Assembly (NCBI RefSeq): GCF_018304945.1
Contig: NZ_JAGQEE010000002.1
Location: forward strand, 310,001-374,000
From: Collimonas humicola
GTDB taxonomy: Bacteria; Pseudomonadota; Gammaproteobacteria; Burkholderiales; Burkholderiaceae_D
Direction of reading: 5' to 3'
Length of the DNA: 64,000 nucleotides
The position numbers and the translations under genes were made by a program. Positions within the stretch are counted from its first letter, which is position 1, and each line of letters starts with the position of its first letter. The notes below the pieces were generated by a model. That model had not been told where the DNA came from, did no database searches, and was given only the letters and a program-made list of their open reading frames with translations. Shown here piece by piece: positions 7,099 through 49,899 of this stretch.

Positions 7099-8196
7099 TC
7101 AATAGGTGTAGAACATGCGCTGGATTTCCTTGGTGTCCTTGGTCTTGGTCAATGCCAGCATCAGCAGGATGCGGGCCTTTTGCGCGTTCAGCGTATCGGC
7201 CACCACGAAGTCCAGTTCGTCGTCGTTGGCTTCGCCGTTACGGGCTACGATGCCCTGGCCGACGCGGCTGGCGCGGACGATGATCACGCCCTTCTTGCGC
7301 GCTTCCACCAAAGGCGTTTTCATTTGCGCTGCGATGCTGCCGTCGCCGACGCCGGCCTGGATGATGCCCTTGGCGCCCGAAGCGACTTGCGCATCGAGTG
7401 CGGCGCGGGTCATGTTGGCGTAGCCGTAGATGATGTCGACCTGCGGCAGCACGTCCAGCTTGCTGATGTCGAACTCTGTATCGACCGTGTTCTTGCGGGT
7501 CGACTGGCGATAGAAGTAAGCCTTGTTGCCCTGGATGTAGCCCAGCATGCCGAGTTCGGTCGACTTGAAGGTGTCGGTGGTCGACGTATTGGTCTTGCTC
7601 ACTTCACGCGCGGAATTGATCTGGTCGTTCAGCGACACCAGCACGCCCTTGCCGATGGCATCCTTGCTGCCGGCCAGCAAAACCGCGTTGTACAGGTTGA
7701 TCGGACCGTCGGCCGAGATCGCGGTCGATGGGCGCATGGCGCCGACGACTACCACCGGCTTGCGGCTCTTGACGGTGAGGTCGAGGAAGTAAGCGGTTTC
7801 TTCGATGGTGTCGGTGCCGTGGGTGATGACGATGCCGTCCACATCCGGTTGCGCCAGCAGCGCGTTGACGCGCTTGGCCAGCTTCAGCCAGTGGTCGTTG
7901 GTCATGCTTTCGCTGGCGATCTGGAATACCTGCTCGCCCTTGACGTTGGCGACCTTTTTCAGCTCAGGAACCGCTGCGATCAGCTTTTCCACGCCTACGG
8001 TCGCCGAGGTATAGCCCACGGTCGTGGTGCTGTCGGCGCCGGTGCCGGCGATGGTGCCGCCGGTCGCCAGGATCACGACGTTAGGCAGTTTGGCCTGGTC
8101 TTGCGCCTGCGCCACGGAAGTCGACAGCAATAAAGCGCCGAACATCATCAATGCGTAAGAATGGAAACTGCGCAGTGTAAGTTTGCGGGTAGACAT
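7099..8196 (-). CDS. ansB: Type II (periplasmic) L-asparaginase
   Basis: The product hydrolyses L-asparagine to aspartate and ammonia. From the ATG at 8196, preceded by AGGAG, it has 365 residues; the frame is open further upstream, but that part is not protein-like. A signal peptide is visible (basic MSTRKLTLR, hydrophobic core, VAQAQ). The mature part begins VILATGGTIAGTG with the first nucleophilic Thr at about residue 45, and carries the second active-site motif ITHGTDTIEETAYFL and the conserved GAMRPSTAISADGP. It ends in the family-typical DTKEIQRMFYTY. It is a single gene with its own terminator. Some relatives also hydrolyse glutamine; sequence reading alone does not settle that. Confidence 0.95.
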   Translation of the reverse strand: MSTRKLTLRSFHSYALMMFGALLLSTSVAQAQDQAKLPNVVILATGGTIAGTGADSTTTVGYTSATVGVEKLIAAVPELKKVANVKGEQVFQIASESMTNDHWLKLAKRVNALLAQPDVDGIVITHGTDTIEETAYFLDLTVKSRKPVVVVGAMRPSTAISADGPINLYNAVLLAGSKDAIGKGVLVSLNDQINSAREVSKTNTSTTDTFKSTELGMLGYIQGNKAYFYRQSTRKNTVDTEFDISKLDVLPQVDIIYGYANMTRAALDAQVASGAKGIIQAGVGDGSIAAQMKTPLVEARKKGVIIVRASRVGQGIVARNGEANDDELDFVVADTLNAQKARILLMLALTKTKDTKEIQRMFYTY

Positions 8197-8345
8197 AAAT
8201 CTCCTGATTTTGTTAATAGTTGTGGACCACAGCCTAGGCTGGGAAAAAAAAAACAAGCCGCGGTCACGCGACAGTTCTACATTCTGCAAATGCGCCGTCA
8301 CGCAGCGAAACTGTAACGGAAAGTGGACAGTCAACCTATGCCAAC

Positions 8346-8365
8346 TATGCATAGGTTTATGCATA
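8346..8365. promoter_or_regulatory. Paired TATGCATA palindromes upstream of ansB
   Basis: The 8-base palindrome TATGCATA occurs at 8346-8353 and again at 8358-8365, 12 bases start to start. A partial copy (CTATGCC) lies just before, at about 8336. The pair sits in the 249-base gap upstream of ansB and could be an operator. No regulator is assigned. Confidence 0.35.
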
Positions 8366-8445
8366 ACCGTTATAGACATCGCAGCGGTCAGGCTTGCGGG
8401 TGTGCAATTTTATTATCAAAAAGAAATGCCGGTCAACGACATCGC

Positions 8446-9297
8446 TCACGCTGCGGGATGCACCTCGGCTGCGTGCGTGATATGCAGCTGACGGGTTGGA
8501 AACGGGATCGAGCAGTTCACCGACTCCAATGCCGCTTGCACGTTTTGTGCCAGCGACCAGCGCACCGCCCAGTATTCAGACGTGGTGGTCCAGGCGCGCA
8601 TGTTCAGCATCACCGCGCTCTCGGCATGGTCGGTGACCACCACCAGCGGCGCCGGCGTCGCCAGGATCCGTTCGTCCGCCAGCAGCAGTTTCTGCAAGGC
8701 CTGGATCGCCACCGCCGGATTGTCCCTGTAATGAATGCCGACTGGCATGTCGATACGGCGCGTATTGTTGCGGCTGAAGTTGGTCAATGCACTATTCCAG
8801 AGCTGATTGTTGGGCACGAACAGGCAGATGCCGTCGGCCTTGGTCAGCTTGGTGGCAAACAGGCCGATTTCATCGACCGTGCCTTCGATGCTGCCGTTGG
8901 AGATGTATTCGCCAACCTGGAACGGCCGCAGGAACAGCAGCATCATGCCGGCCGCGATGTTTTGCAGCGTCCCCTGCAAGGCCAGGCCGATAGCCAGGCC
9001 GGCGGCGCCGAGGATGGCGACGATGCTCGCGGTCTGCACCCCGAACTGCCCCAGCACGGCGACCAGCGTCACCAGCCGCACCATCCACAGCAACACGCTG
9101 CGCAGCACCGGCCGCAGGGTGGCGTCAAGGCTGGCGCGGGTCATGACGCGGTCGAGCGCATTGGCGAAACGCGAGGACAGCCACCAGCCCACCGCCAGCG
9201 TGAAAATGGCCAGCACCGCATTCAGGCCGTAGTGCAGGGAGGATTCAAGAAGGAAATTCCAGAGCGTGGTGAGTTGATTGACAGCTAATATGTTCAA
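8446..9297 (-). CDS. Small-conductance mechanosensitive channel (MscS family)
   Basis: The product has 283 residues, close to E. coli MscS (286). Three N-terminal membrane segments are visible. The third is the Gly/Ala-rich pore helix ASIVAILGAAGLAIGLALQG, followed by LQNIAAGMMLLFLRPFQVGE and the beta domain (GTVDEIGLFATKL, VPNNQLW). Such channels open under membrane tension and release solutes during osmotic downshock. The start is a TTG at 9297 with AGGAG seven bases upstream; no closer ATG would keep the first helix. It is divergent from hisC. Confidence 0.93.
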   Translation of the reverse strand: MNILAVNQLTTLWNFLLESSLHYGLNAVLAIFTLAVGWWLSSRFANALDRVMTRASLDATLRPVLRSVLLWMVRLVTLVAVLGQFGVQTASIVAILGAAGLAIGLALQGTLQNIAAGMMLLFLRPFQVGEYISNGSIEGTVDEIGLFATKLTKADGICLFVPNNQLWNSALTNFSRNNTRRIDMPVGIHYRDNPAVAIQALQKLLLADERILATPAPLVVVTDHAESAVMLNMRAWTTTSEYWAVRWSLAQNVQAALESVNCSIPFPTRQLHITHAAEVHPAA

Positions 9298-9585
9298 GGA
9301 CAGCTCCTGTTGCTTTTGTGAAATAGTGCGGACCGGGTCCGCGTACCAAGCTCTCTATGTTACCAGTTGCCTTTTCGCAACCAGCCGAACGGTCTTGCGT
9401 CCGCCCCATCGCAGAGCTTGCTGCGAGCGATTTCCGAAGAAAAAGCAAGATCTACATTGATCTGTACATGGATGCATGGTTCCCGCCCCCGCCTGGATTA
9501 ACTCGCCCTCGACGTTAACTTCATAAGCTTGCTACCATATGCCGATTCGCCCTATCTGGCCCGCGTAAATTTCCCTAGCGACACA
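9298..9585. other. Divergent intergenic region between mscS and hisC
   Basis: This 288-base region must hold the promoters of both divergent genes. It contains a perfect dyad GCGGACC-G-GGTCCGC at 9328-9342 just upstream of the mscS ribosome-binding site. The region up to the hisC ATG is AT-rich. No promoter pair could be fixed with confidence. Confidence 0.35.
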
Positions 9586-10674
9586 ATGAGCAAATTCTGG
9601 AGTCCCATCGTCAGCCGCCTGACGCCTTACACCCCCGGCGAACAACCCAAGCTGAGCAGGCTGATCAAGCTCAACACCAACGAGAATCCCTACGGACCGT
9701 CGCCGCTGGCGCTGGCCGCGATCGCCGCCGAGGCGGGCGACAGCCTGCGCCTGTATCCCGATCCCGAGGCTGAGCTGCTCAAGCGGGCGCTGGCCGAGCA
9801 GAACGCCGCGCATGGCATCACCAGCGCCCACGTGTTCGTCGGCAACGGCTCCGACGAAGTGCTGGCGCATGCTTTCCAGGCCCTGCTGCAGCATGAAGAA
9901 CCGATCCTGTTCCCGGACATCAGCTACAGCTTTTACCCGACCTATTGCGGCCTGTATGAAGTGGCGCACCGCACGGTGCCGCTGGCGGCGGATTTCAGCC
10001 TGCGCGTCGACGATTACCTGGGCGTCGCCGCCGGCGGCATCATTTTCCCGAATCCGAATGCGCCTACCGGCTGCCTGCTGCCGCTGGCCGAAGTCGAGCG
10101 GCTGGTGGCGGGGCAGCCCGACTGCGTGGTGATCGTCGATGAGGCCTATGTCGATTTCGGCGGCGACAGCGCGATTCCGCTGGTGACGCGCTACCCCAAC
10201 CTGCTGGTGGTGCAGACCTTGTCGAAGTCGCGCTCGCTGGCCGGCTTGCGGGTCGGCTTTGCGATTGGCCATCCGGACCTGATCACGGCGCTGGAACGGG
10301 TCAAGAACAGCTTCAATTCCTATCCGCTGGACCGCATGGCGATCGCCGGCGCCACCGCCGCCATCAAGGACCAGGCCCATTTCGACAAGACCCGGCGCGC
10401 CGTCATGGCCAGCCGCGAGCACATGGTGGCGGGACTGGCCGCGCTCGGCTTCGAGGTGCTGCCGTCGGCCGCCAATTTCGTGTTCGCGCGCCATCCGCGC
10501 CATGACGCCGCCAAGCTGGCTGCCAGCCTGCGCGGCGACGGCATCATCGTGCGCCATTTCAGCAGCGCCCGCATCACCCAGTTCCTGCGCATCACGGTCG
10601 GCACGGATGAGGCTTGCCAGGCTTTGCTGGATGCCTTGCAGCTTCACCTGCAGGCATTGCCAGCCGATTTCTGA
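9586..10674 (+). CDS. hisC: Histidinol-phosphate aminotransferase (stand-alone HisC)
   Basis: This class-II PLP-dependent aminotransferase converts imidazole-acetol phosphate and glutamate to histidinol phosphate. The 362-residue product begins [21 protein letters not shown]; the in-frame upstream codons are not protein-like. Visible motifs are [30 protein letters not shown], the PLP-contact [12 protein letters not shown] and the Schiff-base lysine in [18 protein letters not shown]. The gene is not in a his operon; a lone HisC in Burkholderiales is often a second copy that may also act on aromatic amino acids. MFS and lipoprotein genes follow on the same strand. Confidence 0.92.
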
Positions 10675-44187: not shown

Positions 44188-44547
44188 GCACATTGTAGGC
44201 GCGCTGACGGAAAATGAAAACACCGAAAAACTACTGGCTTTCCTAAAGTGACGCAGAAGTTGGCATTACTGTCATAGAAGGCGAGATTTTTGCCGAGATA
44301 AATTGCGGCGGGCCGGAATTGACGCAACGCGGCGAGTTGACGGTCCTAAACCGACTGGCCCGAACGCGGCATTCGCAATCGGGACAGTGTGCACATAGTT
44401 GCAAAAATCGCCAATTTTGCCCAGCCCCCGAAATATAGAAACAGGGAGTGGCTGCCCCCCCTGTGAAGAATGACAGGTAGATATAACTCAACAAGCATGC
44501 GAGCATTCAAGCATTTGATTGTCCACGCTCAACACTGGGAGACTCGC
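44188..44547. other. Intergenic region between liuR and the lectin-like gene
   Basis: Beyond the liuR promoter this divergent gap of about 360 bases has no gene. Towards the right end there is CCTGT-N8-ACAGG at about 44459-44476, and an AT-rich TATAGA near 44434 that might serve as a -10 box for the lectin-like gene. No convincing promoter pair or quorum-sensing box was established. Confidence 0.35.
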
Positions 44548-45960
44548 ATGACGACCACAGCGTTACAAGCAGGTGCATCAAGCATCCAGAGCGAGGCCTT
44601 CACGATTCTGTCCAATCAGCCATGGCAGAGCACGGGCGTGACGATACCGCCCTTCGTGGAGGTCATGATCGCTTACCAGAACGGCTTGTGGACAGCGGAT
44701 CCGGATACCAATGGCGGCAAGCCGTATGATGCGGCGGGCTGCCCCAACTTGCTGGTTCCGAACGATCAGACCAACTATCCGATTACGGGCGTGCAAATGG
44801 GTGCGCTGGTCGGGCGCCTCAACGGCGGGGCGCCTTTCCTGATCGGCAACGGGCCTTACGCGATCATTTCGGCAGCGGGCGGAGCGCTTGACCTGTGCAT
44901 CAACGATGATCTCACCGGCCGATACGGCGCCGGCTTGAGGGACAACAGAGGAAGCGTGAATGTATTCATCTATCCGACGAACACACCGCCGGACACCGGC
45001 ACGCCGCTCGCGCGCGATCCAGCGCAGACCTCTCCCGCCGTACCCGCCAGCCAGCTCGGCGGGCTGAGCCAGCTGATCGGCACTTGGACCAACCAGAATC
45101 TGGGAGGCTCGAACCAGGGCGGCCCGCAAGCGCCGTTTTCCTACAACGTCATGCCCCTGCCCCAGGTCGATCCAAGCTCGCCCACCGGCTACATTCTCAA
45201 GAACTTCACTTACTATGAGGAACTGAGCTTCACCGCGATCCACGGCAATGCGCCCAATCGCGGCGGAATCGGCCAGCAGGTAGCCTATGCGCTGTTCTAT
45301 GAGCAGCGCGTGTATTTCGCCGAGGGGCCGAACAAGGATGCGTTGATCCACGCCGAAAACGGTTCGCTGCTCTTGCTGCTCGATTCCGCCCAGCCGCTCG
45401 GCCCTTACGGCAACGGCGACCGCGACGGCTTGGGCAATCAGCTCGTGAAGAATAGCGTCCCGCCCACCCAGCAATACAACCTGGTCAAGCAGGTGTCGGT
45501 ACCCCATGGCAATTCCATCCTGGCCTTGGGCGCATATAGCCAAGCCAATGCAGGACTCGGGGTACCGCCGATTCCGTCGGTCTCGCCCTTGCCCCAAGGC
45601 ATTCCCACCGTGCAGTATACGGTGGATGATCCGGTGACCAACCCGCAACCCGGCCTGACCGCCAATCCGAACCAGGTGCTGGTCAATGCGCTCCTGCTGC
45701 GGCCTTGCACCAACTTCCTGCACTTGAGCATGAGCACGGCCAACGGCACTGGCGCGGTCACCAATATCGGCTACGAGCAGCAGCATGCGAACGTCAGCCG
45801 CTATGATTTCAACTATTGGCTCGAATCGTTCGACGGCAGCGACAATTACACGCAGCTGCAATACAGCCAGACCATCACGCTGCAGATTCCGATCAACGGT
45901 AAGACCGTTTCCTTCCCGCACGTGACGGCCAACACCTTGACCAAGGTGAAGGGCAGTTGA
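44548..45960 (+). CDS. PA-IL (LecA)-like lectin fused to a beta-barrel-like domain
   Basis: The ATG at 44548 follows GGGAGA and gives 470 residues; upstream codons are not needed. Residues ~15-142 resemble the galactophilic lectin PA-IL: ALVGRLNGGAPFLIGNG, the Ca/sugar-loop-like LDLCINDDLTGRYG, and NRGSVNVFIY, compared with IYNDVPGTYG and GSFSVNI in LecA. Residues ~170-470 begin LGGLSQLIGTW, a lipocalin/nitrobindin-like opening, and include LKNFTYYEELSFTA, APNRGGIGQQVAYALFYEQRVYF and VSVPHGNSILALG. This second domain is not firmly recognised. No signal peptide is seen, as for LecA. A decayed copy of its C-terminus lies at 49938-50088 next to the ferritin-like gene. Confidence 0.7.
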   Translation: MTTTALQAGASSIQSEAFTILSNQPWQSTGVTIPPFVEVMIAYQNGLWTADPDTNGGKPYDAAGCPNLLVPNDQTNYPITGVQMGALVGRLNGGAPFLIGNGPYAIISAAGGALDLCINDDLTGRYGAGLRDNRGSVNVFIYPTNTPPDTGTPLARDPAQTSPAVPASQLGGLSQLIGTWTNQNLGGSNQGGPQAPFSYNVMPLPQVDPSSPTGYILKNFTYYEELSFTAIHGNAPNRGGIGQQVAYALFYEQRVYFAEGPNKDALIHAENGSLLLLLDSAQPLGPYGNGDRDGLGNQLVKNSVPPTQQYNLVKQVSVPHGNSILALGAYSQANAGLGVPPIPSVSPLPQGIPTVQYTVDDPVTNPQPGLTANPNQVLVNALLLRPCTNFLHLSMSTANGTGAVTNIGYEQQHANVSRYDFNYWLESFDGSDNYTQLQYSQTITLQIPINGKTVSFPHVTANTLTKVKGS

Positions 45961-46016: not shown

Positions 46017-46856
46017 TCAGACCACCGAATGTGACGCATCCAGCGTCCACCGTTCGACGAAGAATCCCGCTTCCAGCCAGGGCCCGCGCACTTGATCGCG
46101 CCACGAGCGTTTGACTTCTTCCAAATCGCGCCCGGTTTCGGCGGCAACCTGCTCCAGGGCAGTCGGCACGTGCATCGTCTGCTGCATCAGCGAGAGGAAA
46201 CGATGGTGCTGGGGTGTGATGGGGTAAGTGTGGGTCAGGAAATCGCGGCGCAAGATCACGGCATTGGAGGGCCGGGCGGCGGGAAAAGGCGGCGATCGTT
46301 CCGCGCGCACCTCGTGGTAGTACCAAGCGACCGGGTAGCCATGACGGACCAGGGCCAGACAGGGCTGGAGGACCAGGGCCTCGTCGTCGGCGGTTGTGTC
46401 CGGCCACAGTTTCCCTTCATGGCCGGGGGCGTCGAACAGGCGGTATAGCTCGCGTTCGTACCCGGCCAGGTCGACCATGAAGTCGATCCAGGTCTCGCGC
46501 CGCTCGGCCGGCTCGCCGCGATCCGGGCGGTTGTCTTCGATCCATTGCGGGAAGCGCTTGCCCAGTTCGTACAGCGTATGGCTTTCGGATGGGCAGTCGC
46601 GCAGGTACTCGTCGGCGAAATCGGCGAACAGCTGCGCCCCGATCGCATGGCAGCTTGCGGGAAACTGCTCTTTCAGACATGTCCGCAGACGCTGGATGTA
46701 GCTGCGCTGATAGATCGCCAGGCAGCCCGAGGCCGACAGCTTGGGGCCCGGCAAGACGGCTGCGGCGAGGGCGGCGGCGTCCACGTCGCCGGGGGTAATC
46801 AGCGCATCGAGCATCCAGTGCTGCAGCCGCTGCAGGCGGTCCGGGGCTGGGGTCAT
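46017..46856 (-). CDS. DUF2063 (MNIO partner, HvfC/BufC-type) protein
   Basis: The 279-residue product has the N-terminal DUF2063 domain: LQRLQHWMLDALITP, SASGCLAIYQRSYIQRLRTCLKEQFPAS and FADEYLRDCPSESHTLYELG. The C-terminal part is a small winged-helix-like region (LEQVAAETGRDLEEVKRSWRD). Such proteins are the usual partner of MNIO enzymes in bufferin-type RiPP clusters and are thought to bind or present the precursor peptide. Its ATG overlaps the MNIO stop (ATGA), so it is the last gene of the three-gene operon. Confidence 0.88.
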   Translation of the reverse strand: MTPAPDRLQRLQHWMLDALITPGDVDAAALAAAVLPGPKLSASGCLAIYQRSYIQRLRTCLKEQFPASCHAIGAQLFADFADEYLRDCPSESHTLYELGKRFPQWIEDNRPDRGEPAERRETWIDFMVDLAGYERELYRLFDAPGHEGKLWPDTTADDEALVLQPCLALVRHGYPVAWYYHEVRAERSPPFPAARPSNAVILRRDFLTHTYPITPQHHRFLSLMQQTMHVPTALEQVAAETGRDLEEVKRSWRDQVRGPWLEAGFFVERWTLDASHSVV

Positions 46857-47836
46857 GGCGGGTACAGGGCGCTACTGCCCATAATCCTGGGCACGAGAAA
46901 ATCCACCGGCGTGGACAGGGCCTCCGCGGTGTCGGATTGCGACTGCGAGGGCGGCATGGCCGAGGTGGAGGTGTCGCCGTGGAGCACCTTTTGCGCCAGC
47001 ATCAATTCCGCGTGCACACGCTCGAACGGCGGAACGTCGCCGTCCCATTCGAGCAGAGTGGCGGCGCCGCCGCTGCGCTGCCAAGCCTTGCGAAACAGCT
47101 GCCATACGGCGTCGCAGACCGGCCTGTCGTGGGTGTCGACGATGTGCGTGCCGCAGTGCTGATGGCCGGCCAGGTGCAGTTGCACGACGCGCTTGAAGGG
47201 AAAGCGCTCCAGGTAGTCCCATGGGTCGGTGCCGGCATTGAAACAGCTGACGTAGACGTTGTTGACGTCGAGCAGCAGCCAGCAACCCGTGGCGCGGCAC
47301 AGTTCGCCGAGAAACGCGGGCTCGTCGATGCTCGAGTCGCGAAAGCGCATATAGGTGCTGGGATTTTCCAGAACCAGGGGGCGGCCCAGCAACTCCTGCG
47401 CCTGGGCCACGCGCGCAATGACGTGCGCCAGCGTGTCCTGGTTCAAAGGCAGCGGCAGCAGGTCGTGGCTGTTGATGCCTTGCATGCCGCTCCAGCACAA
47501 GTGGTCGCTGACCCAGCGCGGCGACACTTCGTCGGCCAGCTGGCGCAGGCGCGCGAGATAGGATCGGTTCAGCGGATCGGTGCTGCCTATCGACAGCGAC
47601 ACGCCGTGCAGCGCGATCGGATAGCGTTCGGCGATCCGGCGCAGGACAGCGCGCGGTCGTCCGCCGGAATCCATGAAATTCTCCGAGATGGCCTCGAACC
47701 AATCGACCTTCGGCCACTCAGCGAGGATGTGGTCGAAGTGGACGTTGCGTAGTCCGAGGCCAAGACCAAGTCGCGGCATGGGCGACAACGCGCCGGCGTC
47801 TTCCCCCTTTGCCGGTTGTGGGGCTAGGCCGCGCAA
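46853..47836 (-). CDS. MNIO family (DUF692) multinuclear iron oxidase
   Basis: MNIO enzymes use two or three iron ions and O2 to modify Cys or other residues of ribosomally made peptides (for example MbnB, TglH, ChrH, BufB). This 327-residue TIM-barrel protein shows the expected ligand-bearing motifs in order: GLGLGLRNVHF, FEAISENFM, LHGVSLSIGS, VSDHLCWSG, VLENPSTYM, LLDVNNVYVS, QLHLAGHQH, DTHDRPV and LEWDGDVPPF. The start is a TTG at 47836 after GGAGCGGG, overlapping the ferritin-like stop by 13 bases; the ATG at 47779 is an alternative. The last ~35 residues are an extra low-complexity tail. Confidence 0.92.
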   Translation of the reverse strand: MRGLAPQPAKGEDAGALSPMPRLGLGLGLRNVHFDHILAEWPKVDWFEAISENFMDSGGRPRAVLRRIAERYPIALHGVSLSIGSTDPLNRSYLARLRQLADEVSPRWVSDHLCWSGMQGINSHDLLPLPLNQDTLAHVIARVAQAQELLGRPLVLENPSTYMRFRDSSIDEPAFLGELCRATGCWLLLDVNNVYVSCFNAGTDPWDYLERFPFKRVVQLHLAGHQHCGTHIVDTHDRPVCDAVWQLFRKAWQRSGGAATLLEWDGDVPPFERVHAELMLAQKVLHGDTSTSAMPPSQSQSDTAEALSTPVDFLVPRIMGSSALYPP

Positions 47837-49899
47837 CTACCCGCTCCGCTCATGCCGCTGGAGCCACATGCCGTCACGCCGACACCGCTCTCCGTGAACC
47901 AGGCAAAGGTCGGTCCGTTGGCAAACAGCTCCGGGTGCGGCGGAGCCGGCAATGCGGTGGGGTCAAGCCCATTCGCCTTGGCGATCGCCGGCCAACGTTT
48001 TTCCAGGAACACTTGGCGCGCGCGCAACCATACGCCCTGCCCCTTGTTCGGGCCGTCAGTGCTGAAGCGTTCTGCGTTGATCGGCGTCGCACAGGAACCC
48101 AATGACCGGCAGGCGTTGCCACCGGGGTTATTCTGTTCTTCGGCGTCTCCATAAAGGCCGCAACCGCCTTGGTATTTGCAATTGTTCAACACACGACAGG
48201 AGTGGTCGGCTGTGCTGGAGCAATAACCTTGTCCGGCGCAAGCGTTTTGCACCATTTGGCCCTGCTGATTCGGGTGTCCCGCCGGGCCGAATCGGTCCTG
48301 GCCCCTACAGCTATTGAGCCCCATGCACGTGTGGGGGTCGAAGGCGCCCACCGGCGGACTGGCCGGAAACTTGGGAACATTGGCGTAGGGGTTGTTCGTC
48401 GGCGGGGTGTTGGGTATCGCGTTTGACCAATAGCTGCTCACGTCAGGCAGGGACACTCCCTTGCTGTTGGTAATGTAGTCTTGCGACAACCAAGCGAAAC
48501 CGGGACTGCTGCTAGCCATCTTATTGCCGAGCGCGACCAGATTTGCATACGCTTGGTCGCGGGTGCCTAAATTGTAATTCTCGAATGTCGGCGCAAGATT
48601 CTTTCCGGCGAACTGACCGCCATCGATCGACAACTTCGCCATTTGCTGGACCAGCTTATCGAGAATCCAGATCATGGAGAGGTGCAGCGCCTGGTTGAAA
48701 TAGCGCTTCTGTTCCTGGCTAGGTACCAGAAAAATGGTCTCGCTCAGGATCAACATGTACTGGAACAGGCCATTGCAAAAATTCGAGATGTCCTGCGGGT
48801 TGGCAGGGTAATGGATGTTCTTTTTCAGAAGGCAGGCTGGGTAGTCGGCCGTCTTGGGATTGCTCGGGAAATGGAAGACAACGGCGGACAGATCGCTGGC
48901 CGAAAACTGCGTCGCTGCCGCCGCTGGGGGGGCCGGCTGTGCGGCCAGCGGCTGCGAAGCCGAGGGGTAGCCCTGCAATTGCGATTGCAGAGTGAGGAAT
49001 TTGTAGTAGTGCGACAGTTCCATCTTTTTCGAGTCGTCCCACTGCGTACTGTTGCTGCCTTCTCCTTGCTCAGTCACGGTATCGATGGCGTGCAGGGCGC
49101 TCTTCTTGTCTTGAATCGTCAAGAGTTCGGTGCGACCTGCGTGGCTGTCCGAGGCATTGGCATACCGTGCCTGGCTTGCCGCCGAGCCCGCCTGTGCAGG
49201 AGGGTTGGACGCGTTGAAGTTCGCCGCGGGAAAGACGGCGTCGATATTGCCGGAAGCGTAATTGCTCGGCTGAATCTGTTGCGCGCGGGCGCCGTGGTTG
49301 AAATCAGCATCGACCAATTTATCGCACGCGATCAGACAGCGAATGTAGGCGTATACCTGACCCAGAGTCTGCCAATTGTCATCCTCGGGAATGGCGTCGG
49401 AGGTTTCGGGATACTCGATCTCCAAAAATTGCCAAAGCTGCGCGAATGAGAATGGCGCCAACGGGATGAGGAGGGGATTGCCATCGGGGCCATCTGTGGC
49501 GTGATCGAGCAAGTTTGTCGGATAACTGCCGGGCGCATTCAGGTAAAGCTGAGGACAGCCCCCCACCGAATACAGAATATTGCTCGACAGCGACATATGC
49601 AGCATTTCTTCGACCGCAACGCTCATGATGCGCCCGCCCGCCTGATTGGCGAACAATGCCGCCGCAGAATAATTCGTCACCGACGGCGGATTCGCGTTGC
49701 CGGCTGTCCGGTCGAGCGAATAATAGCTATAGAGATAAATTGGAATGGTCGACAATTCGACCTTGATCGCCACCTGCAACAGCGACTGCAGCTTCGCCAG
49801 CAAGGTATCGTGAGTCCACTCAGGGTTCGTATTGAATTTGTGAACCAGCGCTTTTTCCGCTGGAGTGAGCCTCGGCAATGCAGTGGCCGTATTCGTCAT
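47824..49899 (-). CDS. Ferritin-like (VioB-type) protein fused to a Cys-rich CX5C substrate-like region
   Basis: The 691-residue protein begins with a ferritin-like domain of the iminophenylpyruvate-dimer-synthase (VioB) kind: IKVELSTIPIYLYSYYS (Glu near 48), AVEEMLHMSLSSNIL (Glu97, Glu98, His101), a later TVTEQGEG (Glu277, Glu280) and ELSHYYKF (His297), all plausible iron ligands. Residues 310-510 are helical and Pro-linked. Residues ~520-610 hold Cys525/531, 554/560, 568/574/580 and 597/603, every pair separated by five residues (CMGLNSC, CAGQGYC, CRVLNNCKYQGGC, CRSLGSC), as in small MNIO-modified peptides. Two more Cys are near the end. A strong AAGAGGAG precedes the ATG. MNIO and DUF2063 genes follow with overlap. 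Confidence 0.85.
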   Translation of the reverse strand: MTNTATALPRLTPAEKALVHKFNTNPEWTHDTLLAKLQSLLQVAIKVELSTIPIYLYSYYSLDRTAGNANPPSVTNYSAAALFANQAGGRIMSVAVEEMLHMSLSSNILYSVGGCPQLYLNAPGSYPTNLLDHATDGPDGNPLLIPLAPFSFAQLWQFLEIEYPETSDAIPEDDNWQTLGQVYAYIRCLIACDKLVDADFNHGARAQQIQPSNYASGNIDAVFPAANFNASNPPAQAGSAASQARYANASDSHAGRTELLTIQDKKSALHAIDTVTEQGEGSNSTQWDDSKKMELSHYYKFLTLQSQLQGYPSASQPLAAQPAPPAAAATQFSASDLSAVVFHFPSNPKTADYPACLLKKNIHYPANPQDISNFCNGLFQYMLILSETIFLVPSQEQKRYFNQALHLSMIWILDKLVQQMAKLSIDGGQFAGKNLAPTFENYNLGTRDQAYANLVALGNKMASSSPGFAWLSQDYITNSKGVSLPDVSSYWSNAIPNTPPTNNPYANVPKFPASPPVGAFDPHTCMGLNSCRGQDRFGPAGHPNQQGQMVQNACAGQGYCSSTADHSCRVLNNCKYQGGCGLYGDAEEQNNPGGNACRSLGSCATPINAERFSTDGPNKGQGVWLRARQVFLEKRWPAIAKANGLDPTALPAPPHPELFANGPTFAWFTESGVGVTACGSSGMSGAGSCAA

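Follow-up and report, generated by a model that had tools for sequence, protein, structure and literature searches.

What is a region resembling the small peptides modified by MNIO enzymes doing at the end of a ferritin-like protein? The question is raised by a 691-residue protein of Collimonas humicola, encoded ahead of the genes for an MNIO and a DUF2063 protein in the window that we analyzed, a stretch of 64,000 nt (NZ_JAGQEE010000002.1, positions 310,001-374,000). We propose, with a probability of about 0.6 and from sequence comparisons, that the locus represents, in fused form, a four-gene cassette found in many bacteria, in which a Cys domain oxidized by the MNIO and its DUF2063 partner would be a cytosolic metal-binding module of the ferritin-like protein.

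A ferritin-like protein with a Cys-rich tail

The three-gene set named in a preliminary description of this DNA is present on the minus strand, and all three domain models score above their cut-offs. The features, in window positions, are as follows.

47824..49899, minus strand: fused protein of a ferritin-like domain and a Cys-rich bufferin-like tail, 691 aa
48985..49779, minus strand: PF12902 ferritin-like domain, residues 41-305 (129.1 bits, cut-off 22.3)
48328..48405, minus strand: linker, residues 499-524 (PPTNNPYANVPKFP...), with a weak likeness, by eye, to the leader-like N-terminus of some free peptides
47833..48327, minus strand: Cys-rich tail, residues 525-689, with nine Cys in CX5C steps plus C678 and C689; the homologue has a gene of its own in 57/80 related loci (see below)
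46853..47836, minus strand: BufB-type MNIO, 327 aa (PF05114 352.7 bits, cut-off 25; NF050167 358.6 bits, cut-off 310)
46017..46856, minus strand: DUF2063 partner (PME-type 1), 279 aa (DUF2063 63.6 bits, cut-off 27.2)

The tail contains 11 Cys, at positions 525, 531, 554, 560, 568, 574, 580, 597, 603, 678 and 689. The first nine are exactly the CX5C positions listed previously, whereas C678 and C689 had been left unmentioned. The MNIO and DUF2063 genes overlap by 4 bases, as described; the 13-base overlap assigned to the fusion and MNIO genes holds only if the MNIO starts at a TTG codon, and an alternative ATG 57 bases (19 codons) downstream abolishes it. Labelling the ferritin-like domain as VioB-type was correct as to the PF12902 family, but the fused protein does not qualify as a VioB (TIGR04492, 32.7 bits against a cut-off of 1250), and a VioB-type pigment enzyme is rejected on this score.

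The full-length structure model has a mean predicted local distance difference test score (pLDDT) of 80.9 and a predicted template modelling score of 0.85, with 10-residue pLDDT means mostly of 80-98 in the ferritin-like part. Its best solved match is Caulobacter CC_0557 (PDB 3HL1; Foldseek E 1.1e-6, TM 0.70 on the target, 16% identity), which, like VioB, belongs to the same PF12902 family as the ferritin-like part of the fusion. The 3HL1 chain has 317 residues and its sequence match is restricted to that part; the tail alone gave no useful match in Foldseek or in a PDB sequence search. In the relatives described below, E48 is kept in 76/79 sequences, E98 and H101 in 78/79, and E162, E294 and H297 in 79/79. 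This spacing, E, ExxH, E, ExxH, is typical of ferritin-like dimetal sites, and we infer that E48, E98xxH101, E162 and E294xxH297 bind metal.

Conservation of the cassette

The whole protein has matches in 12 of 300 genomes from the order. Six of these, including the window's own, have the tail type studied here; the other six comprise one with a second tail type (G235) and five in which just a tail-less PF12902 gene is present. Of the six genomes with the tail type studied here, four encode the tail on its own (157 aa, given a suitable start codon), in a gene placed between those for the ferritin-like protein and the MNIO. The alignment of the six tails has 11 invariant Cys, and a search of a named-genome collection with it yielded 153 relatives, the best 80 of which underlie all 80-locus counts given here; a scan of the same collection with the window tail alone gave no confirmed relative. 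The 80 loci were picked via two peptide patterns, which include three of the nine CX5C Cys and leave six outside, and five of them apparently duplicate genomes of the order-level set. Domains at the loci were called with our own profiles, built from five or six sequences each, with Pfam or NCBIfam backing for the MNIO, the DUF2063 protein and a few ferritin-like proteins.

The nine CX5C Cys are kept in 80/80 tails, and the last two Cys in 97-99%. Chance clustering of Cys is ruled out by this conservation, which is stronger evidence than the binomial probability of 11 Cys in 179 residues (P ~3e-5, with 218 Cys among the 16,605 residues of the window's long open reading frames, ORFs, as background). 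The gene order ferritin-like, tail, MNIO, DUF2063, on one strand, is found in 77/80 loci with our profiles on ORFs, and the three exceptions all lie at a contig edge (L039 without DUF2063, L092 without MNIO and DUF2063, L093 without the ferritin-like gene). In 79/80 loci the ferritin-like gene comes first, before the peptide; in the remaining one it is cut off by the contig start. Since the loci were chosen by their tails only, the cassette neighbors constitute an independent observation. One cassette, of Pseudophaeobacter leonis (L062, 5026-9309), has its ferritin-like and DUF2063 frames each broken in two, by decay or sequencing error.

By their record titles the loci come from Pseudomonadota, Bacteroidota, Acidobacteriota, Myxococcota, Actinomycetota and Cyanobacteriota, some of them being metagenome bins. 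A phylum sample of 398 genomes gave four matches: the window, one complete cassette, one second-type fusion (see below) and a short gene located ahead of an MNIO gene. When the class was searched with the six-tail model, 13 weak matches came up in addition to the window; the six that were read are two second-type fusions and four short BufA2-like genes.

As a control we took eight distant tail-less PF12902 genes from the order-level search, in stretches of 16.5-17.9 kb with at least 5.9 kb on each side; for 8/8 of them, none of the MNIO, DUF2063 and tail profiles found a match within these stretches. The preliminary description had made its case depend on whether homologues keep the CX5C tail and an MNIO neighbor, and on how regularly MNIO and DUF2063 genes adjoin the tail across genomes; both expectations are borne out by the complete cassettes and by the control. 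The window's genome also has a second PF12902 gene elsewhere (L157, G000:C18:122992-123666).

Fused and split forms

The tail is fused in 23/80 loci and a free gene in 57/80, so that fusion is the minority form and the split arrangement the majority. With 23 fused relatives, an assembly artefact as the source of the fusion is ruled out. The likening of the tail to free MNIO-modified peptides has a direct counterpart in homologous free genes, and the absence of a separate precursor gene, true for the window, does not extend to most relatives. In the 57 split loci the free gene lies directly 5' of the MNIO gene (in L092 the contig stops before the MNIO).

Judged by their sequences, the fused and split forms are the same thing. 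Many free peptides start with a segment like PGxPVPxPYPYxxAPxFPxxIGxQPxGxPLHA ahead of the first CX5C step, and in five fused proteins (L043, L044, L051, L052 and L061) the linker is that leader-like segment; the window has a weaker version, NPYANVPKFP, as judged by eye. A regular expression for the leader matches 20/57 split and 6/24 fused sequences, the window not being matched, and the matches in L026, L069 and L071 look loose. The segment is limited to part of the family; peptides from Bacteroidota start differently, some of them with a very short N-terminus. On the best MNIO tree the fused or split state changes six times, of which the well supported branches require just one.

A second type of fusion was found in L149, L150 and L151 (PF12902 84, 66 and 92 bits), where a diverged Cys tail is followed by MNIO and DUF2063 genes, and in a fourth protein, L154, with MNIO and DUF2063 neighbors likewise. 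A search of 339 genomes with a second-type protein returned only itself and G426.

Relation to bufferins

All 80 MNIOs scanned (the window's and 79 others) match BufB at E<=0.001, and they match the remaining MNIO models as well, with BufB the best by E-value (5.5e-109, the next being 1.2e-76); the window MNIO also passes the curated BufB cut-off. The closest solved relative of the MNIO profile is 3BWW. DUF2063 is matched by 79/79 partners at E<=0.001. Against the RRE-type C-terminal domain NGO1945_C the window partner reaches 18.7 bits (cut-off 27), and 13/79 partners match it at E<=0.001. In a quick tree with second-type MNIOs and MNIOs beside BufA2-type matches, the cassette MNIOs form one branch (support 99), with the second-type MNIOs beside it (support 99 for both together). 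This tree contains 41 of the 80 cassette rows, two pairs of duplicate rows (L108=L149, L113=L150) and a very long row for L024.

The tails themselves resemble BufA2 (NF050166), which is matched by 37 of 58 scanned tails at E<=0.01 (best 4.6e-6), and a profile-profile comparison gives a probability of 91 over 27 columns. Scanned whole against BufA2, six free peptides reach 27 bits at best (cut-off 60). The precursor-MNIO-DUF2063 gene order of bufferins is present in 77/80 loci. With the maximal 12-residue hydrophobicity as a gauge of signal-peptide likeness, the free peptides have no signal-peptide-like segment: their median maximum is 0.17 (n=57), versus 1.87-2.31 in eight BufA2 controls. Values over 1.6 are confined to L083 and L085 and depend there on the earliest start codon; an inner start gives a 157-aa form as in the relatives.

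The other MNIO of the window's genome belongs to a canonical Buf1-type operon with genes for a DUF2282 peptide, MNIO, DUF2063 and DoxX, all above Pfam cut-offs:

L024 (G000:C11:720000-738000), 7949-10361: Buf1-type operon of the same genome

A predicted metal-binding module

From its position and conservation, the tail is very probably the substrate of the MNIO, a view strongly supported by the 57/80 loci in which a free gene for it immediately precedes that for the MNIO. Because the tail is BufA2-like and the MNIO BufB-like, a thiooxazole product is likelier than an oxazolone/thioamide. The same product would follow from the statement in PMC13097082 that every characterized MNIO-PME1 case installs 5-thiooxazole.

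We hypothesize that the ferritin-like protein, probably a diiron protein, is paired with or fused to a Cys-rich substrate, which the DUF2063 protein would present to the MNIO. The MNIO would then oxidize the nine CX5C Cys, or a part of them, most likely to 5-thiooxazoles. The modified domain may remain attached in the fused form, or act as a subunit in the split form, in both cases in the cytosol. The ferritin-like protein would thereby gain a soft-metal site, with copper as a first guess, for sequestration or redox work. We prefer to see the modified domain as a lasting metal module because the C-terminal region of the peptide, beyond the Cys arrays, is conserved; this region is also predicted with better confidence (10-residue pLDDT means of 72-84 for residues 611-660).

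Several observations weigh against this interpretation. The window tail scores below the BufA2 cut-off (22 versus 60 bits), and the Cys arrays (residues 521-610) are modelled with low confidence (10-residue pLDDT means of 42-68). By eye, the second-type proteins do not retain all nine sites: in L149-L151 the first CX5C step is not conserved, and L150 lacks one further Cys. PMC13097082 itself says that 5-thiooxazole is not established as the sole product of MNIO-PME1 pairs.

The ferritin-like protein might instead be a second maturase, whose metal centre further oxidizes the Cys peptide; the fusion would be an enzyme tethered to its substrate, as in fused borosins, and the modified peptide would be the product. 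The constant place of the ferritin-like gene before the peptide (79/80 loci, fused in 23) and the ligand-type residues kept in 76-79 of 79 sequences are consistent with this, as are the distant relationship (32.7 bits) to VioB, an oxidative enzyme, and the genes for FMP-type heme-binding proteins near 11/80 loci. We nevertheless consider it less likely: the peptide is conserved beyond its Cys arrays, exceeding the needs of a released core, and clustering of the neighbors of the 80 loci shows no constant exporter or protease gene, since apart from the FMP type and shadow ORFs no family recurs in more than 5/80 loci.

Two further explanations appear highly improbable. If the tail were an unmodified Cys-rich metal or disulphide domain and the neighboring MNIO served another substrate, one would not expect the MNIO and DUF2063 genes directly after the tail in 77/80 loci, the others being cut by contig ends, nor the separate branch of cassette MNIOs, nor the lack of a nearby MNIO gene around 8/8 tail-less PF12902 genes; moreover, the genome's other MNIO is already paired with its own DUF2282-type bufferin gene. 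An ordinary bufferin system, in which a BufA2 peptide with the usual export and copper buffering was fused to an unrelated neighbor, would account for the BufB-type MNIO, the DUF2063 partner and the BufA2-like Cys motif, and it conflicts with the low hydrophobicity of the 57 free peptides relative to the controls, with the ferritin-like gene in 79/80 loci and with the distinct MNIO branch.

Heme proteins and other neighboring genes

Next to the operon in the window lies a further gene:

44470..45960, plus strand, convergent with the operon: FMP-type heme-binding protein, 496 aa (NF040572 234.4 bits, cut-off 150)

An FMP-type gene is present in the fetched stretch of 11/80 loci and in the window, and 10/10 scanned proteins (L028 was left out) pass NF040572. 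In ten loci it adjoins the cassette: eight times upstream on the same strand, divergently in L047, and convergently downstream in L104. Seven of 200 order genomes have an FMP-type protein above cut-off, namely 4/5 cassette genomes versus 3/195 others (Fisher p 2.7e-6, the count assuming that the 200-genome sample is G000-G199). Because two of the five cassette genomes share one genus and the FMP-type gene is on another contig in three of the four, the association is suggestive only, and the FMP-type heme protein is a possible accessory partner. The origin of the label FMP was not found in the literature.

ORFs resembling DyP peroxidases and cytochromes P450 lie near the cassette in L056, L059, L069, L070, L071 and L095. 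Pfam confirmed one DyP-like and one P450 gene (L059, L069), and related ORFs cluster in five loci each; three further ORFs in or beside these clusters had no Pfam match. The largest neighbor cluster (19 loci) was dropped because, in the example viewed, its ORFs are antisense to cassette genes.

Comparison with known systems and implications

Borosins, in which an enzyme is fused to its own substrate, resemble the cassette in that fused and split enzyme-substrate forms coexist, while the enzymes and the chemistry are unrelated. With the BufA2/Buf2 bufferins (Antoine et al., 2025, PMC12452194) the cassette shares the precursor-MNIO-DUF2063 order, the BufB-type MNIO and motifs of the C-x-G-x-N-x-C type. 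It differs by the lack of an evident signal peptide, a tail below the cut-off, a larger conserved C-terminal part, a separate MNIO branch and a constant ferritin-like partner or fusion. Bufferin fusions reported in the same paper (MerC|Buf2, Buf1|cytochrome c|FGE-sulfatase) likewise join a bufferin-type domain to a metal-related domain; they are presented as few instances, in contrast to a cassette conserved over six phyla and mostly unfused.

Captophorins, a class of MNIO-DUF2063 thiooxazole metallophores proposed in PMC13097082, are described there by an MNIO, a DUF2063 (PME1) partner and a Cys-rich substrate, all of which the cassette has. The cassette differs in that its substrate is a protein domain, either fused to a ferritin-like protein or paired with one, and thiooxazole, reported for captophorins, is a prediction here. 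Adjamnio-I peptides (PMC12452194, Table 2) are signal-less, have 122-293 aa and 8-21 Cys, and are encoded before the MNIO gene, as the free peptides are. Their main organization as given there has a PME-type 2 partner without a DUF2063 signature, unlike the DUF2063 match in 79/79 partners of the cassette; the two groups could still overlap.

The cassette was not found described in open-access papers on MNIO, DUF692 or DUF2063 with ferritin, as far as titles and abstract openings go, with most subscription papers and all supplements lying outside this body of literature. The sole DUF692 paper with the term 'ferritin-like' has it in a reference only. The word 'ferritin' is absent from the main text of PMC12452194, and 0 occurrences are listed for PMC13097082.

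According to PMC12452194, DUF2063 partners accompany the MNIOs whose substrates bear a signal, but not those whose substrates lack one. The cassette is an exception to this pattern, because here a DUF2063 partner goes with a substrate without an evident signal: 55/57 free substrates have nothing signal-like, and in the remaining two a signal-like stretch depends on choosing an earlier start codon. The cassette offers a test of two points left open in that paper: whether true proteins are modified by MNIOs, and whether recognition by DUF2063 partners needs a signal peptide.

More tentatively, the cassette might define a new class of cytosolic metalloproteins, in which a ferritin-like protein, probably a diiron oxidase, has a second metal site with MNIO-made thiooxazole-type ligands and probably works with FMP-type heme proteins. 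If so, the MNIO would be a protein-cofactor maturase rather than a metallophore enzyme, and the reach of MNIO chemistry would widen beyond small exported metallophores to include a protein that has a metal centre of its own. The coexistence of fused and split forms makes both the recognition and the function of the domain directly testable.

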